Translations under genes and position numbers: made by a program
Source: Enterococcus sp. DIV0660C
GTDB lineage: Bacteria > Bacillota > Bacilli > Lactobacillales > Enterococcaceae
NCBI RefSeq assembly: GCF_017316125.1
Contig: NZ_JAFLWA010000005.1
Location: forward strand, 1-43,783
DNA length: 43,783 nucleotides
Direction of reading: 5' to 3'
Notes under the pieces: model-generated
Seen by the model: only the letters and a program-made list of their open reading frames with translations
Database searches by the model: none
Told to the model about the DNA's origin: nothing
Shown here: positions 37,603 through 43,783 of the stretch, one piece after another
How positions within the stretch are numbered: the first letter of the stretch is position 1
Layout: every line of letters begins with the position of its first letter

Positions 37603-37638
37603 TTGTCTGAATGATTCTCTCATTCAGACAATTTTTTT
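37603..37638 (+). terminator. second terminator after adhE
   Basis: TTGTCTGAATGA / TCATTCAGACAA with a 5-base loop, followed by TTTTTTT. Confidence 0.88.
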
Positions 37639-37804
37639 GTGTAAAGAGAAAATATGCGTTCAAATATGTACTTGTGAGATTACTTATAAAAAATTTTGTC
37701 ATTGAAAAAGAGAGAAACATTTCGATGACCACTTAGCTATCAATTATTAAGATAGGTAAAAATTTCAAACATAAGATCAACTTTAGATATTTTTTTCTCA
37801 ATTT

Positions 37805-37839
37805 ATCCTATTTATAGGGTATAGGATTCTTGCTATATT
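37805..37839 (+). promoter_or_regulatory. promoter and operator of the GH105-TRAP operon
   Basis: TTTATA (37811-37816), a 17-base spacer and TATATT (37834-37839) with a TGC extension. A perfect inverted repeat ATCCTAT (37805-37811) / ATAGGAT (37821-37827) straddles the -35 box, a likely regulator site. Confidence 0.6.
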
Positions 37840-37854
37840 AAGGATATCAATAAA

Positions 37855-37868
37855 TGAAAGCGTTTTAG
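37855..37868 (+). promoter_or_regulatory. cre-like site downstream of the GH105 promoter
   Basis: TGAAAGCGTTTTAG has a perfect cre core but differs in the last two bases of the consensus. It lies about 10 bases after the expected start, a roadblock position for CcpA. Confidence 0.45.
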
Positions 37869-37884
37869 AAAGGGCGTGGATGAA

Positions 37885-38994
37885 ATGTCAATTATTAAAG
37901 AAGAAATTTTTGTACCAAAAGAATTAGTAAAAGAGAAAATTGCTTTACTTTTAGAAAATTTAACAACCATAAAAGATGAAAGTGGCGATTTTCTATTGGA
38001 TTTTGATGGATTAAAGGTTGATGATAAAAGCTGGACAGTATGGAATTGGCCACAAGGAATTGGTCTGTATGGGACCTATAAGAATTATCAATTAACTAAA
38101 AATCATCGAGCTTTAGAAGTTGTTAATGATTGGTTTGAAGCACGTATGGAAGAAGGCGCACCACCAAAAAATGTAAATACGATGGCTCCATTATTAACAA
38201 TGGCTTATTTGTATGAAGATACAAAGGATTCACGCTATTTACCTTACTTGGAACAATGGGCAGAATGGGTAATGTATGAGATGCCTAGAACAAACGAACA
38301 AGGGTTACAGCATGCGACATATGGTCCAGAAAATAAAAATCAGTTATGGGATGACACCTTGATGATGACAGTATTACCTCTGGCTAAAATTGGGAAGTTA
38401 TTAAATCGCTCAGAGTATTTAGAAGAGGCTCGTTATCAGTTTATGATCCATATTAAATATTTGATGGATAAACGTACTGGTTTGTGGTATCACGGTTGGA
38501 CCTTTGAAGGAAATCACAATTATGCGGAAGCGTTTTGGGCGCGTGGTAATTGCTGGTTAACAATGGCAATCCCTGAAATCATTGAGATTTTAGAATTATC
38601 TAAAGATGACGCTCTACGAAAACTTTTAGTTGAAACGTTAGAAGCGCAGGTTCAGACATTAGCTAAATATCAAGCAGAAAGCGGTTTGTGGCATACATTA
38701 TTGGATGATGAGTCCTCTTATGTTGAATCATCAGCAACAGCTGGCTTTGCATATGGCATCTTAAAAGCTGTTCATAAGAGATATTTGGAACCAAAGTATA
38801 AAGAAGTTGCTTATCGTGCAATACAAGGTTTATTAGAACAAATTGATGAAAATGGTGAAGTACACAATGTTTCGATCGGTACAGGAATGGGGGACGATTT
38901 AGAATTTTATCGCAATATTGGAATTACTGCTATGCCATATGGTCAATCGTTAACGATGCTTTGTTTAACAGAATTGTTAGTTTCGTATTGTTAA
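37885..38994 (+). CDS. GH105 unsaturated rhamnogalacturonyl-type hydrolase
   Basis: A 369-aa (alpha/alpha)6-barrel glycoside hydrolase of family 105 (YteR/YesR-like). Such enzymes hydrate the C4-C5 double bond of an unsaturated uronic acid at the end of a lyase product, releasing a 5-keto-4-deoxyuronate and the second sugar. The WDD motif (155-157) carries the Asp matching YteR Asp143. WNWPQGIGLYG (53-63) and FWARGNCW (217-224) also fit. There is no signal peptide, so it works inside the cell. ATG 37885 follows AAAGGG; the in-frame GTG at 37876 is too close. First gene of the operon; dctP follows by 18 bases. Natural substrate unproven. Confidence 0.85.
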   Translation: MSIIKEEIFVPKELVKEKIALLLENLTTIKDESGDFLLDFDGLKVDDKSWTVWNWPQGIGLYGTYKNYQLTKNHRALEVVNDWFEARMEEGAPPKNVNTMAPLLTMAYLYEDTKDSRYLPYLEQWAEWVMYEMPRTNEQGLQHATYGPENKNQLWDDTLMMTVLPLAKIGKLLNRSEYLEEARYQFMIHIKYLMDKRTGLWYHGWTFEGNHNYAEAFWARGNCWLTMAIPEIIEILELSKDDALRKLLVETLEAQVQTLAKYQAESGLWHTLLDDESSYVESSATAGFAYGILKAVHKRYLEPKYKEVAYRAIQGLLEQIDENGEVHNVSIGTGMGDDLEFYRNIGITAMPYGQSLTMLCLTELLVSYC

Positions 38995-39012
38995 AAAAGA
39001 AAGGAAGACAAA

Positions 39013-40026
39013 ATGAAAAAAGTAATCTTGCTAGCAGGAATATTTGGCTTGAGTTTACTGGGATTAAATGGTTGCGGTAGTGCTGTAAACGTTACAGCTA
39101 CAGATGAAAAAGAAACAATCAATTTACGTTTTGCTTATGCTAGTAATAGTCAGCCTGTGATTGATGCGATGAACGAATTTGGTCGATTAGTAGAGGAAAA
39201 GACAGACGGAACAGTTAAAATTCAATATTTTCCAGATGGTCAACTTGGCGGTGAAAGGGAATTGATTGAATTAACTCAGTCAGGAGCCGTAGACTTTACA
39301 AAAGTCAGTGCCTCTGCTTTAGAAAGTTTTTCAAAAAATTACTCTATTTTTTCTGTTCCGTACTTATTTGAAAGTGAAAAACACTTTTTTGACGTAATGG
39401 ACAATGAAGAAATAATGACGCCGATTTATCAATCAACCACAGATTTAGGTTTTACTGGTTTAACCTACTATGATTCAGGTCAACGAAGCTTCTATATGGT
39501 TGATGGTCCTATTCAAACACCATCAGATTTGTTAGGAAAGAAAATCCGTGTTATGCAAAGTGAAACAGCTATTAAAATGGTAGAATTACTTGGCGGATCT
39601 GCGGTACCTATGGGAAGTGATGAAGTTTATACTTCTTTACAATCGAATTTGATCAATGGTTCCGAGAATAATGAATTTGTGTTACATACAGCAGGGCATG
39701 GAGGAGTTGCGAAATACTATTCTTATGATGAACATACTCGTGTACCGGATATTATGATTATGAACGATGCAATCAAAGAGCAACTAACAGAAGAGCAAGA
39801 AACGGCGATTTATGAATCAGCAAAAGAATCGACAGTTTTTGAAATTGAAGCCTTTTCTAAGGCTGTTGAGGAAGAAAAAGCAACTGCGCAAGAAGCATAT
39901 GGGGTTAAATTTAATAAAGTCGATAATACGCCATTTCGTGAAGCAGTGGCTCCACTTCATGATGAATTCAAAAATGATCCAGTTTATCAACAACTGTACC
40001 AGCAAATTCAAGATCAAGGAGCCTAA
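39013..40026 (+). CDS. dctP: TRAP transporter substrate-binding lipoprotein (DctP family)
   Basis: A 337-aa solute-binding protein of a TRAP transporter, anchored as a lipoprotein (signal 1-20, Cys21 in LNGC). The DctP fold is clear: FAYASNSQPV, FPDGQLGGERE (E81, R82), and Arg179 in GKKIRVMQS, the residue that holds a substrate carboxylate in this family. The LINGSENNEF segment is of the type seen in uronate-binding members. Gram-positive cells lack a periplasm, so tethering is expected. It should deliver an acidic sugar to DctQM. The gap to dctQ is 3 bases. Confidence 0.9.
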   Translation: MKKVILLAGIFGLSLLGLNGCGSAVNVTATDEKETINLRFAYASNSQPVIDAMNEFGRLVEEKTDGTVKIQYFPDGQLGGERELIELTQSGAVDFTKVSASALESFSKNYSIFSVPYLFESEKHFFDVMDNEEIMTPIYQSTTDLGFTGLTYYDSGQRSFYMVDGPIQTPSDLLGKKIRVMQSETAIKMVELLGGSAVPMGSDEVYTSLQSNLINGSENNEFVLHTAGHGGVAKYYSYDEHTRVPDIMIMNDAIKEQLTEEQETAIYESAKESTVFEIEAFSKAVEEEKATAQEAYGVKFNKVDNTPFREAVAPLHDEFKNDPVYQQLYQQIQDQGA

Positions 40027-40029
40027 TAA

Positions 40030-40491
40030 ATGAAAAAAATAATGAATCAATTGTTAGAAATTATTGGTGCTGTATTGTTATTTGCAATGGTAGGAGTAGT
40101 TTTGTGGCAAGTGTTTTCTCGGACGGTATTAGGTAATCCCAATACCGTGACAGAAGAATTTGTTCGTTTTGGACTTGTCTGGTTTGCCATGCTTTCTTCA
40201 GCTTACGTTGTAGGGCAAAAAGCACATTTAGCTGTAACAATTTTAAGTGAAAAATTAACAGGAACTAGAAGTTGGGTGTTAGAGATAGTAGTACAAACAT
40301 TGTTTCTATTATTTGCTACTATTATTATGGTTTATGGTGGAATGAATGCGGTTACCTTGACGATGGGACAATTATCTCCCTCGTTAGGAATACCTATGGG
40401 CTATGTTTATTTATCGGTACCTGTATCAGGCTGCCTGATTGTTGTTTACAGTTTAATAAATTTGATTGATACATTCAATACTGTTAAATAA
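40030..40491 (+). CDS. dctQ: TRAP transporter small permease (DctQ)
   Basis: A 153-aa membrane protein with four helices, the size and layout of DctQ. The TVTEEFVRFGLVWFAMLSSAYVVGQKAHLAV segment contains the family's E-E-R...W..ML.A....R/KAH pattern. It forms the small subunit beside DctM. It is the third gene of the operon, 3 bases after dctP. Confidence 0.88.
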   Translation: MKKIMNQLLEIIGAVLLFAMVGVVLWQVFSRTVLGNPNTVTEEFVRFGLVWFAMLSSAYVVGQKAHLAVTILSEKLTGTRSWVLEIVVQTLFLLFATIIMVYGGMNAVTLTMGQLSPSLGIPMGYVYLSVPVSGCLIVVYSLINLIDTFNTVK

Positions 40492-40520
40492 TTGAAAAAG
40501 TATAGAAATGGAGAAATAAT

Positions 40521-41816
40521 ATGGCATTAGAAGCTGGAATGGTTCTGTTTTTCGTTTTTGTTATATTGCTTATTGTAGGGATGCCAATTGCAATTAGTAT
40601 TGCATTTTCATCAATGATGACGCTGCTGCTAGTGATTCCTTTTGATGTTGCTACCTTTAGTTCAGCACAGAAAATGGTTGGGAGTATTAATAGCTTTTCT
40701 CTAATAGCGATTCCATTTTTTGTCTTTTCAGGAATAATTATGAATAATGGTGGGATAGCGAAAAAGTTAGTAGATTTTTCGATGCTTTTTGTCGGACGTA
40801 TTCCGGGCTCTCTAGCGCATACGAATGTATTGGGAAATGCTTTATTTGGCTCAATTTCGAGTTCAGCAATTGCTGCTTCAACAGCCATTGGTGGCGTACT
40901 AATTCCTCAACAAGTGGAAGAAGGCTATGATCGCAAGTTTGCAACGGCAGTGAACATTGCTTCGGCACCTACTGGAATGGTTATTCCGCCAAGTACAGCA
41001 TTTATTATGTATTCATTAGTTGCAGGTGGGACTTCTATCTCGGCTTTGTTTATGGGAGGATATCTCGTAGGCGCACTTTGGGCATTAGGAATCATGGTAG
41101 TTGCTTTTGTGGTTGCTAAAAAGAATAAATACCCTACAGTACAAAAAAATCAGATAAAACATTCAGGTAAAGTATTGAAAGAAGCAATTCCCAGTTTATT
41201 GTTGATTCTTATTATCATTGGTGGGATTTTAACAGGCATATTTACTGCAGTAGAAGCTTCAGCAGTTGCTGTGATTTATTCATTATTGATTTCGATGTTT
41301 TATTATAAAACGGTTAAGTTAAGAGATATTCCAAATATGTTGGTTCAAGCGGTTGCGATGTCAGGGACAATTATGTTTTTGCTGGCTACTTCATCAATGA
41401 TGTCATTCTCAATGGCTTTTACAGGAATACCTCAAGCAATTAGTAGTATGATTATAGGGATTACTGATAACAAAATGATTATTTTATTATTGGTCAATGT
41501 CGTTTTATTGTTAGTCGGGATGTTTATGGATGTGGCGCCAGCAATTATGATTTTTACTCCCATCTTTTTACCAATCGTGACAAGTGTGGGTATTGACCCT
41601 GTTCATTACGGTTTGTTTTCGATAATGAATTTATGTGTAGGTTCGATTACTCCTCCAGTTGGCACAGGATTATATGTTGGAGCTAGTGTAGGCGGAGTAA
41701 AAGCAGAATCCATGCTTAAACCACTATTACCTTTTTACGGCGTGATATTAGGTGTTTTATTCTTAATTACGTACTTCCCACAGCTTGTAATGTGGTTACC
41801 TGATATATTAGGATAG
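40521..41816 (+). CDS. dctM: TRAP transporter large permease (DctM)
   Basis: A 431-aa membrane protein with about 11-12 helices of the ion-transporter superfamily; it catalyses Na+-coupled uptake. Typical pieces are VGMPIAISIA near the N-terminus, IPFFVFSGIIMNNGGIAKKLVDF, GSISSSAIAASTAIGGVLIP, NIASAPTGMVIPPSTAFIMY and the C-terminal NLCVGSITPPVGTGLYVGASVGGVK. GGAG lies upstream of the ATG. Together with dctP and dctQ this is a complete tripartite transporter. Confidence 0.92.
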   Translation: MALEAGMVLFFVFVILLIVGMPIAISIAFSSMMTLLLVIPFDVATFSSAQKMVGSINSFSLIAIPFFVFSGIIMNNGGIAKKLVDFSMLFVGRIPGSLAHTNVLGNALFGSISSSAIAASTAIGGVLIPQQVEEGYDRKFATAVNIASAPTGMVIPPSTAFIMYSLVAGGTSISALFMGGYLVGALWALGIMVVAFVVAKKNKYPTVQKNQIKHSGKVLKEAIPSLLLILIIIGGILTGIFTAVEASAVAVIYSLLISMFYYKTVKLRDIPNMLVQAVAMSGTIMFLLATSSMMSFSMAFTGIPQAISSMIIGITDNKMIILLLVNVVLLLVGMFMDVAPAIMIFTPIFLPIVTSVGIDPVHYGLFSIMNLCVGSITPPVGTGLYVGASVGGVKAESMLKPLLPFYGVILGVLFLITYFPQLVMWLPDILG

Positions 41817-41826
41817 GAGAAAGAAA

Positions 41827-42669
41827 ATGTTAAATCTAACGATACGTGGACATGATCTTTCTGGTGTTCATACAGCCGAAGAACTGGCTAGAAAAACAAG
41901 TGATCAAGGAGTGCATACACTACAACTAGCGTTAGGACTATCTTTTAAAGGTCTCAATTCCGATGCTTCTGCCATCAATGCCGGGATGGGTAATTTTATG
42001 AAGCGGACATTATTGCAAGAAAATGTTCATATAGGTATTTTGAGTTGTTATATCAATATGATTCATCCGGATTTAGAAGTCAGGGAACAGTTGTTACTCA
42101 AATTTGAACATTATTTACAGTATGCTACTTCTTTTGGTGCCGCTATAGTTGCCACAGAGACAGGTTGTGTTTTTCCAGAAATACGTTATACAGAAGAAAA
42201 TTTTACAGACAAAGCTTTTGAAACTGCAGTTACGGTAATCCGTCGATTAGTGAATGCAGGAGAAAAGTACAACATGGTGGTAGGAATCGAACCGGGTTTG
42301 AACCATCCAATCTATTCGCTAGAACGTGTTTGTCAGCTAATTGAAGCTGTAGATTCTGATTATTTAGGCATCATTTTAGACCCAACGAACCTGATTAGTA
42401 GTGATAATTATCAACAACAAGTCCAACTTGTAGAAAGCGCCTTTGATTCATTTGGCGAAAAGATATGTGCGGTTCATTTAAAAGACTTTATTGTAGAAAA
42501 ACAACAAATTATACCTGTAAATTTGGGTGAAGGAATGATGGACTATCAAAAAATCATAAAGCTGATTGCACAGAAGAAGCCTTATTTATTTGTTGTTTTG
42601 GAGGAGACAAAGGACCGAGCTATTCAACGTGCCGTTAAGTTAATTGAGGACTCATATTCGTTTGGATAA
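41827..42669 (+). CDS. TIM-barrel sugar isomerase/epimerase (xylose isomerase-like)
   Basis: A 280-aa protein of the sugar phosphate isomerase/epimerase (AP endonuclease 2) superfamily. Metal-binding residues are visible on successive strands: Glu in VGIEPG, Asp in ILDPTN, His in AVHLKD and Glu in VVLEE. The superfamily includes hydroxypyruvate, tagatose and inosose enzymes, so the reaction cannot be read. It begins 10 bases after dctM, so it very likely acts on the imported sugar or its hydrolysis product. It could replace a Kdu-type isomerase, but that is inference. Confidence 0.8.
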   Translation: MLNLTIRGHDLSGVHTAEELARKTSDQGVHTLQLALGLSFKGLNSDASAINAGMGNFMKRTLLQENVHIGILSCYINMIHPDLEVREQLLLKFEHYLQYATSFGAAIVATETGCVFPEIRYTEENFTDKAFETAVTVIRRLVNAGEKYNMVVGIEPGLNHPIYSLERVCQLIEAVDSDYLGIILDPTNLISSDNYQQQVQLVESAFDSFGEKICAVHLKDFIVEKQQIIPVNLGEGMMDYQKIIKLIAQKKPYLFVVLEETKDRAIQRAVKLIEDSYSFG

Positions 42670-42733
42670 AAGTTACTAGCCAATGAATCAAGAGAGCGAT
42701 ACTTAAGATGAAAGTAAAATGGGCTATGATATT

Positions 42734-42755
42734 GTTTATTCACCATTGAATAAAC
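42734..42755 (+). promoter_or_regulatory. hairpin/operator before the AraC-type regulator
   Basis: Perfect 9-bp inverted repeat GTTTATTCA / TGAATAAAC with a 4-base loop, between a possible -10 (TATGAT at 42725-42730) and the ribosome binding site. There is no T-run, so an operator or translation-controlling hairpin is likelier than a terminator. Confidence 0.45.
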
Positions 42756-42777
42756 GAGGCTTTGGGAGGGACGATCA

Positions 42778-43677
42778 ATGAATCAAAAAAAAATAAATGG
42801 TGAACAAGTCAATACGATGGTGTCAAATCAATATGAAATTTATCATGTGAAAAATGTCGTTAGCCAAAGTCAAACACTTTATCATTATCATGATTTTTAT
42901 GAAGTCCATGCAACTTTGAAAGGGAAAGCAACTTTTTACTTGAACGGCCGACAATTTACGATTGAAGAAGGAAATATTTTGTTGATCCATTCCAATGACT
43001 TACATCGTATTGTTCGCCAATCCTCAGACGTTTTTGAGAGAGTATACATATTTATTACATCCTCATTTTTAGAAAGTCGATCTACACAATGGTCTAATCT
43101 AACTTCTTGTTTTAAACCACTGGGGGATAAGCGGAGCCGTATCTTGAAAGTCCCTCCTAAATTATTAAGAGAAAAATTAGCCTTTATTGATTATCCACCT
43201 AATAAACAGAGTTATGGAGAGGATATTAAATATGAACAAACATTAGTGGATTACTTTATTTTTTTGAATAGGATCGTTCAAAAAGAAGAACAGACTCACG
43301 TAGAAAATGCCGTGATTCTGAATGAACGAGTTGAACAAATGCTAGAATATATCTCAAAAAATTTGTCACATCCACTGACTCTAGAAGAGATGGAAAAAAA
43401 GTTTTTTGTAAGTAAATATCACATTACAAGAGAATTCAAAAAATATACAGGTTTTACGTTCCATCAGTATGTTATGAAAAAGAAATTACTTTATGCGAAA
43501 CAACTATTAAAAGAATATCATAGCTCTAGTGCTATTTATAGTAAATGTGGGTTTACATCTTATCCACATTTTCTAAAAGCTTTTAAAAAAGAATTCGGAC
43601 TGACACCGAAAGAATTTTTAAAACGGAATACGCAAAATCAGATTGTTCATTATGAACATTTTGAAGATGAGCGGTGA
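42778..43677 (+). CDS. AraC family transcriptional regulator
   Basis: A 299-aa regulator with an N-terminal cupin sugar-sensing domain (about 15-130, with HYHDFYEVHATLKGKATFYLNGRQFTI split by strands and LLIHSNDLHRI) and a C-terminal double helix-turn-helix (about 190-290, LTLEEMEKKFFVSKYHITREFKKYTG and YSKCGFTSYPHFLKAFKKEFGLTPKEFLK). Such proteins usually activate the neighbouring catabolic operon when their sugar is present. GGGAGGG precedes the ATG. A 108-base gap separates it from the isomerase gene, so it may have its own promoter. Confidence 0.92.
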   Translation: MNQKKINGEQVNTMVSNQYEIYHVKNVVSQSQTLYHYHDFYEVHATLKGKATFYLNGRQFTIEEGNILLIHSNDLHRIVRQSSDVFERVYIFITSSFLESRSTQWSNLTSCFKPLGDKRSRILKVPPKLLREKLAFIDYPPNKQSYGEDIKYEQTLVDYFIFLNRIVQKEEQTHVENAVILNERVEQMLEYISKNLSHPLTLEEMEKKFFVSKYHITREFKKYTGFTFHQYVMKKKLLYAKQLLKEYHSSSAIYSKCGFTSYPHFLKAFKKEFGLTPKEFLKRNTQNQIVHYEHFEDER

Positions 43678-43687
43678 AAATCAATTC

Positions 43688-43746
43688 AAAAGAAATCGTC
43701 ACACCTACAAAAAGAACTTGTAGGTGTGACGATTTCTTTTCTTTTT
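43688..43746 (+). terminator. terminator of the accessory locus
   Basis: Perfect stem of about 23 bp (AAATCGTCACACCTACAA and its complement) with a 7-base loop, followed by CTTTTTT. Confidence 0.92.
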
Positions 43747-43783
43747 TGTGTTCTTAAACAGTTCAGGAATAATCTCATATCTT

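Follow-up and report, generated by a model that had tools for sequence, protein, structure and literature searches.

What does a tripartite ATP-independent periplasmic (TRAP) transporter carry when its genes lie between those of a hydrolase for unsaturated uronides and a triosephosphate isomerase (TIM)-barrel protein? Such a locus stands near the end of contig NZ_JAFLWA010000005.1 (C45) of Enterococcus sp. DIV0660C, all 43,783 nucleotides of which formed the window analysed here; the genome comprises 2.6 Mb in 65 contigs. Six co-directional genes on the + strand encode a GH105 hydrolase, the TRAP solute-binding protein DctP, the permeases DctQ and DctM, a TIM-barrel protein and an AraC-family regulator. 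We consider it likely that they form the TRAP-fed entry part of a pathway for rhamnogalacturonan-I fragments; TRAP import of an unsaturated uronyl disaccharide followed by cytoplasmic GH105 cleavage, as put forward in the original prediction, is the best reading by the relatives of the GH105 protein and its context of rhamnose (rha) and uronate genes.

The observation of the six-gene locus was confirmed: all genes are present where they had been placed, and Pfam matched each to its family (Table 1). Gene content, order, conservation and co-occurrence could be read directly from the records. The intergenic gaps are 18, 3, 29, 10 and 108 bases in order, meaning that the tight spacing proposed for the whole row holds for the first five genes (3-29 bases) and not for araC, which is spaced more loosely. 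Terminator-like hairpins lie on both flanks, as had been described; the palindrome at the assembly break folds as RNA at -34.6 kcal/mol (z = -11 against shuffles). The grouping is not a chance one, because dctPQM accompanies GH105 in 24 of 71 loci with a window-type GH105 that we fetched from a scan of named genomes (whole, or in locus L034 the part before a contig end).

The hydrolase matches PF07470 from position 2 to 349 of 352 and, over almost its full length, 3qwt and 3pmm (phmmer 496 and 478 bits), which we take to be RhiN proteins. Its D160 aligns with D143 of Bacillus YteR, presumably the catalytic Asp, and is kept in at least 97% of 61 sequences; YteR (1nc5, 2d8l, 2gh4) shares family and catalytic residue with the window's enzyme but is distant in sequence (89.8 bits). 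The nearest named relatives are in Enterococcus, with that of E. lactis 91% identical. The gene starts at GTG, with an alternative in-frame ATG possible at 37885, and we found no strongly hydrophobic N-terminal stretch (best 15-residue Kyte-Doolittle mean 0.87 within the first 60 residues), in agreement with the earlier view of a signal-less enzyme. Three further PF07470 genes occur in the same genome, making four in all.

The three TRAP subunits lie together, with PF03480, PF04290 and PF06808 all above cut-off. DctP has a hydrophobic N terminus (best 15-residue Kyte-Doolittle mean 2.57) followed by LNGC, presumably a lipobox-like motif, whose Cys21 is invariant in 22 aligned sequences. Its nearest solved relative is 4n91 (phmmer 231.6 bits, profile 310.7 bits), which is Apre_1383, a D-glucuronate binder (PMC7660916; here and below, statements on cited papers refer to the portions of their text that were available). 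Alignment to 4n91 and residue spacing both equate R158, R179 and N219 of DctP, invariant in the 22 sequences, with Arg150, Arg170 and Asn210 of STM3169, which coordinate the hexuronate (PMC7660916), R179 being the carboxylate-binding arginine. DctP resembles Apre_1383 and STM3169 in these contacts; the window's clade differs from them in that their ligands are monomeric and in the replacement of an Asn35-Gln36 pair that likewise contacts glucuronate (PMC7660916). A profile alignment to 4n91 puts Tyr42-Ala43 in its place (a pairwise alignment gives a gap and Ala43), and Tyr42 is invariant in the 22 sequences. DctP counterparts of STM3169 Glu74 and Asp237 are ambiguous in this comparison, which did not include the STM3169 sequence. 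To judge by these residues, the pattern suggests that the ligand is an acidic sugar and not the same as glucuronate; the exchanged pair, expected of a related but different ligand, was counted in favour of a rhamnogalacturonan fragment.

The original prediction called the locus self-contained. It is not, because contig C26, which overlaps the window by 60 exact bases, carries rhamnose and uronate genes, and the pathway runs on past the contig end. The first 60 bases of C26 recur in reverse complement at the end of the window; of three further window bases, the first differs. The C26 end of the overlap has the coordinates L079:10093-10152. From there C26 carries a convergent araC2, rhaB, rhaA, rhaD, rhaM, a lactaldehyde reductase gene, an IclR-family gene and genes for 2-keto-3-deoxy-6-phosphogluconate (KDPG) aldolase, a KdgK-like kinase, KduI and a KduD-like dehydrogenase. 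Rhamnulokinase, L-rhamnose isomerase, rhamnulose-1-phosphate aldolase, rhamnose mutarotase, lactaldehyde reductase, KDPG aldolase and KduI all score above their NCBIfam cut-offs. The IclR-family protein is KdgR-like and the kinase KdgK-like, each below the cut-off of that model; the short-chain dehydrogenase has gluconate 5-dehydrogenase as its best model (above cut-off) and is called KduD-like from its place beside kduI. Unbroken records (L005, L006, L007 and L008) show the same order of AraC, convergent AraC2 and rhaB, with AraC2 74-78% identical to that of C26. Measured from where the GH105 match begins, rhaA and kduI lie 8,370 and 14,661 bases away across the proposed junction and 8,492 and 14,770 bases away in a relative (G050:C33), and spacing is comparable in unbroken contigs of genomes G050 and G104. 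The palindrome at the break point is common to the two convergent AraC genes, on the C45 and C26 sides. Because rhamnose and uronate genes follow on C26, the cargo can be narrowed to galacturonyl-rhamnose, which argues against chondroitin or heparin disaccharides.

In a separate part of C26 (L078:3306-9987), about 9 kb from the kduD-like gene, lie genes for IIA, IIB, IIC and IID of a mannose/sorbose-type phosphotransferase system (PTS), a GH88 protein, a heparinase-II/III-like protein and a GntR regulator; this row is probably a route for glycosaminoglycan disaccharides that shares kduI.

Relatives of the locus keep this chemistry while their transporters vary. Of the 24 TRAP loci, 23 have one or more rha, kdu or kdg genes, the exception being L034, cut by its contig end; both the rha and the kdu/kdg arms are present within the fetched stretch in 9 of the 24. 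A TIM gene accompanies GH105 in 33 of the 71 loci, once as a fragment (L007). Ten loci have GH105 and TIM without TRAP, and there a GPH symporter (six loci) or an ABC system of a solute-binding protein and two permeases (four loci) is found. The transporter looks like the exchangeable part of the locus, because GPH or ABC systems replace TRAP in relatives, as expected if all three import the same substrate.

A second sample, chosen independently of GH105, comprised 198 genomes from the order to which the window belongs, which we took to be Lactobacillales; these genomes are related, and counts among them are not independent events. Full-length DctM (E <1e-80; weaker matches covering part of the model were left out) occurs in 17 of them, with matches at E <=0.001 in 54 and above the Pfam cut-off in 36, consistent with the earlier remark that TRAP systems are unusual in lactic-acid-type cocci. 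In 11 of the 17, a RhiN-type GH105 of at least 62% identity lies no more than 8 kb from DctM; among the remaining six, one has a distant GH105 match (22%) and five have none. GH105 (E <=1e-80) is present in 15 genomes and the TIM family (E <=1e-30) in 17, which include all 15; TIM thus occurs in 15/15 genomes with the window-type GH105 and in 2/183 without, the finding that we had least expected. Fisher values, which ignore genome relatedness, are 1e-20 for TIM with GH105 and 4e-11 for TRAP with GH105.

From this evidence we infer the cargo, the direction of transport, the regulation and all activities. DctP, as a surface lipoprotein, would bind an unsaturated galacturonyl-rhamnose disaccharide, probably made by rhamnogalacturonan lyases of other organisms, and DctQM would import it, with the ion coupling expected of the family. 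The cytoplasmic RhiN-type GH105 would split the disaccharide into L-rhamnose and 4-deoxy-5-keto-uronate. Rhamnose would then pass through RhaM, RhaA, RhaB, RhaD and lactaldehyde reductase, and the uronate through KduI, the KduD-like dehydrogenase, the KdgK-like kinase and KDPG aldolase, with the TIM protein as a metal-dependent enzyme of sugar isomerase/epimerase type in the uronate (pectin) arm. AraC would probably activate the operon from a 21-base-period repeat beside the -35 box, and a site resembling a catabolite-responsive element (cre) would give catabolite repression.

The original prediction had noted that no lyase is nearby. We recognised no rhamnogalacturonan lyase, by a narrow test that searched the genome with PF18370 (PL11-type) and not for PL4 or PL9. 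Two stretches of contig C14 fell below the PF18370 cut-off (24.5 and 22.9 against 27.8 bits), and a 578-residue protein there (L080:148-1884) scored above it when taken whole (34.0 bits). We rejected this protein as a lyase because its PF18370 match falls on fn3 repeats (81.1 bits), in a protein of GH18-CBM5/12 type. Matches to PF18370 (RGI_lyase) through fn3 repeats are a false lead for lyase surveys.

The substrate route is known, and the transporter class has been predicted for this cargo, so the idea is not wholly new. Bacillus imports rhamnogalacturonan fragments by an ABC system. In the RhiT-RhiN system of Dickeya (Erwinia) chrysanthemi, a cytoplasmic unsaturated galacturonyl hydrolase likewise feeds rhamnose and uronate routes under control of an AraC-family protein, RhaS (PMC3870299); the window differs in having TRAP in place of RhiT, an adjacent TIM gene, and an AraC of its own in addition to the separate one near rha genes. 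For Salmonella, RhiABC has been predicted to transport rhamnogalacturonides and likened to Dcu (PMC3870299); for Gramella flava, the same prediction was made with RhiABC described as TRAP-type (PMC5306329). Compared by description rather than by sequence homology, RhiABC resembles the window's system in proposed cargo and in its link to rhiN, and differs in being Gram-negative, a prediction only, and described in the available text with no TIM gene named. We found no paper on TRAP import of rhamnogalacturonides in Enterococcus in the open-licence PMC literature.

Upstream of the GH105 gene, a putative AraC-type operator (TCAA-17-TCAA) lies just 5' of promoter-like boxes. A matrix built from five relatives, with the window left out, scored it at 24.0, the next best site in the 43.8 kb window reaching 3.0, and the conserved block stands about 70-125 bases 5' of GH105 in relatives as far as Trichococcus. 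A matrix that included the window found the site above a threshold of 14 in 16 of 21 relatives, five of which had been used to build it; with a second matrix, window left out, L033 (S. merionis) scored 15.0 at the expected place. In E. florum (L014) the site precedes kduI. A direct repeat of 21-base period has been reported for an Enterococcus AraC-type rhamnose regulator (PMC3870299), its sequence identity with the window's repeat not being visible in the available portion. Co-regulation appears partial, with no sign that the operator links the two arms, because a site was not found before rhaB nor, above that threshold, in five of the 21 relatives. The cre-like site differs from what we take to be the cre consensus in two of 11 specified letters, at its 3' end.

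In the TIM protein, E155, D185 and H217 are kept in 41/41 sequences and E259 in 39/41 (Asp in the other two); we take this E-D-H-E set to be the metal site of xylose-isomerase-like TIM barrels. The protein is below the NCBIfam cut-offs of all four models that it matched (L-ribulose-5-phosphate 3-epimerase and IolO types; best 37.7 against 317 bits) and is only 14-16% identical to Art22 (8z1i), UlaE (3cqj), YcjR (6wn6) and AtHYD (8ro4). All 23 TIM genes in the 17 genomes of the sample lie within about 15 kb of a GH105. Of seven later stretches around TIM genes (four Enterococcus and one Paenibacillus genome), three had no GH105/GH88 match: L108 has a GH28-like gene, L111 UxaB-UxaA-UxaC, and L112 no query match. 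The profile used to search for TIM (A2) was built from GH105-linked genes. Six Enterococcus genomes were chosen because TIM did not adjoin the GH105 through which they had entered the comparison; TIM is present in five of them and absent from E. cecorum (G198), and it was not found in Metabacillus (G205) either. In E. columbae, one of the five, TIM sits in the second GH105 locus; the two RhiN-type loci of this species (L024, L028) are about 23 kb apart, with TRAP and TIM in L028 only.

We examined 21 genomes with TIM and found KduI in all and RhaA in 18, the three without it (E <=1e-40) being G157, G161 and G164; a 22nd genome searched, G198, has KduI and RhaA without TIM. A rhamnose enzyme is not the leading idea for TIM, because RhaA is missing in three of these genomes while all have KduI. 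Neither do we favour TIM as a general partner of unsaturated uronyl hydrolases, because its own genome has four PF07470 genes but one TIM. TIM seems tied to pectin.

TIM might instead do the work of KdgF and open the ring of the free unsaturated uronate, an idea that we regard as rather doubtful. It would fit the presence of KduI in every TIM genome and the absence of RhaA from three, and the fold neighbours of TIM include, among many ties, the enol-sugar hydratase 8ro4. The genome has ten Cupin_2 matches (E <=0.1), and neither of the two inspected is KdgF-like in context: one is, as read by eye, a helix-turn-helix-cupin protein, and the other a cupin in a frame of 157 residues, with carboxymuconolactone-decarboxylase-family and aldo/keto-reductase genes as neighbours and, in the PDB, five matches consisting of TM1010 and further cupins; the remaining matches are in frames of 177-354 residues. 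This cupin comparison included no KdgF sequence as positive control, and the lack of any match when the loci were searched for small cupins by regular expression is uninformative for the same reason. Moreover, free uronate of the same kind would be expected from the products of the other three PF07470 genes, although the genome has a single TIM, and GH105-type hydration may yield the open form directly.

In all six stretches L088-L093 of relatives, a GDSL esterase gene and a more distant TIM gene overlap by 4-8 bases, and in L045 and L046 TIM comes after a GH42 protein with a GDSL domain. It is possible that GDSL and TIM form a two-step unit acting on acetylated pectin fragments.

As to the cargo, the TRAP system could import monomeric hexuronates (galacturonate, glucuronate) while GH105 serves fragments from another transporter. 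The glucuronate-binding nearest relative of DctP and the kept Arg, Arg and Asn contacts agree with this, but dctPQM lies between GH105 and TIM in a unit with gaps of 3-29 bases, is replaced by GPH or ABC systems in relatives, and encodes a binding protein that has lost the Asn-Gln pair; relatives of UxaC, UxaA, UxaB and UxaE (E <=1e-10) were not found in the 24 TRAP loci, a search that did not extend to the window's genome as a whole. We judge it unlikely. A glycosaminoglycan disaccharide (unsaturated chondroitin, hyaluronan or heparin) is very improbable: PF07470 is common to GH105 and GH88, and that route could also draw on kduI and its downstream genes, but rhaBADM and the lactaldehyde reductase gene directly follow, one of the three other PF07470 genes lies beside the mannose-type PTS and heparinase-II/III-like genes, and the genome has a single TIM gene. 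That the hydrolase is a beta-galactosidase, after NF051900 (BglB, Agrobacterium; 476.6 bits, curated cut-off 420), is hardly credible given the strong 3qwt/3pmm match, the kept YteR Asp, the uronate and rhamnose catabolism around it and the lack of any paper that we could find behind the BglB name, even though a GH42 (beta-galactosidase family) protein with a GDSL domain occurs in five of the 71 loci (L023, L024, L031, L045, L046), where it would also fit galactan side chains of rhamnogalacturonan. The BglB name is probably misleading, given context and relatives, and NF051900 is likely to mislead annotation of RhiN-type enzymes.

Several points weigh against import of a rhamnogalacturonan disaccharide by TRAP. 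The closest relative of DctP is a known binder of monomeric glucuronate, the predicted DctP model (predicted local distance difference test score 58) is too poor to judge pocket size, and a TRAP system carrying a disaccharide was not demonstrated in the literature that we found. The predicted RhiABC of Gramella flava was down-regulated on apple pectin (PMC5306329). The KduD-like, KdgK-like and KdgR-like proteins miss the cut-offs of the models so named. The exchange of transporters is not strict, since L023 and L034 combine TRAP with ABC permease genes. In L012, L013, L033, L034 and L043 no operator site exceeded the threshold of 14, and none was found in front of rhaB on C26.

Among the relatives' records, L005, L011 and L007 each have one gene of the locus split or truncated (DctM, DctP and TIM, respectively), through sequencing error or decay. 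L018, a contig labelled Sedimentibacter sp. SX930, has a Trichococcus-like layout, and we suspect a mislabelled or contaminated record.

Table 1. Coordinates in the window of the six genes, their flanks and putative control sites.
Feature	Position	Strand	Basis
Terminator-like hairpin, upstream boundary, 3' of adhE	37603..37631	+	12 pairs, loop 5, T-rich tail; TTTTTTTGTG
Putative AraC-type operator, direct repeat TCAA...TCAA, 21-base period	37772..37804	+	conserved block in 6 aligned upstream regions
Promoter-like -35/-10, TTTATA-17-TATATT, TG before -10, directly 3' of operator	37811..37839	+	consensus match only
cre-like site (catabolite repression), TGAAAGCGTTTTAG	37855..37868	+	first part conserved in 6 aligned upstream regions
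GH105, predicted RhiN-type unsaturated galacturonyl hydrolase, cytoplasmic	37876..38994	+	PF07470, 330.7 bits; YteR Asp aligned
DctP, TRAP solute-binding lipoprotein near hexuronate-binding group	39013..40026	+	PF03480, 227.2 bits
DctQ, TRAP small permease	40030..40491	+	PF04290, 112.3 bits
DctM, TRAP large permease	40521..41816	+	PF06808, 402.4 bits
Xylose-isomerase-like TIM barrel, putative metal ligands E155 D185 H217 E259	41827..42669	+	PF01261, 85.5 bits
AraC-family regulator	42778..43677	+	PF12833, PF02311
Bidirectional terminator-like palindrome at assembly break	43691..43737	.	20 pairs, T-rich tail on both strands
Exact 60-base overlap with C26 end (reverse complement)	43721..43780	.	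identical bases

We propose only tentatively that two things here are new: a TRAP system that carries a disaccharide, and a pectin-specific, metal-dependent TIM family filling a gap between the hydrolase and the kdu route of lactic-acid-type bacteria and their relatives. The presence of TIM in all 15 GH105 genomes of the 198-genome sample points to an enzyme step that is not named in the available portions of the pectin-use maps of PMC3870299 and PMC12838403. If the cargo is as we propose, a disaccharide TRAP would widen the range of this transporter class, so far small organic acids and monomeric sugar acids in the literature found, and the locus would give gut and plant-associated enterococci that have no evident rhamnogalacturonan lyase a route for scavenging pectin fragments.

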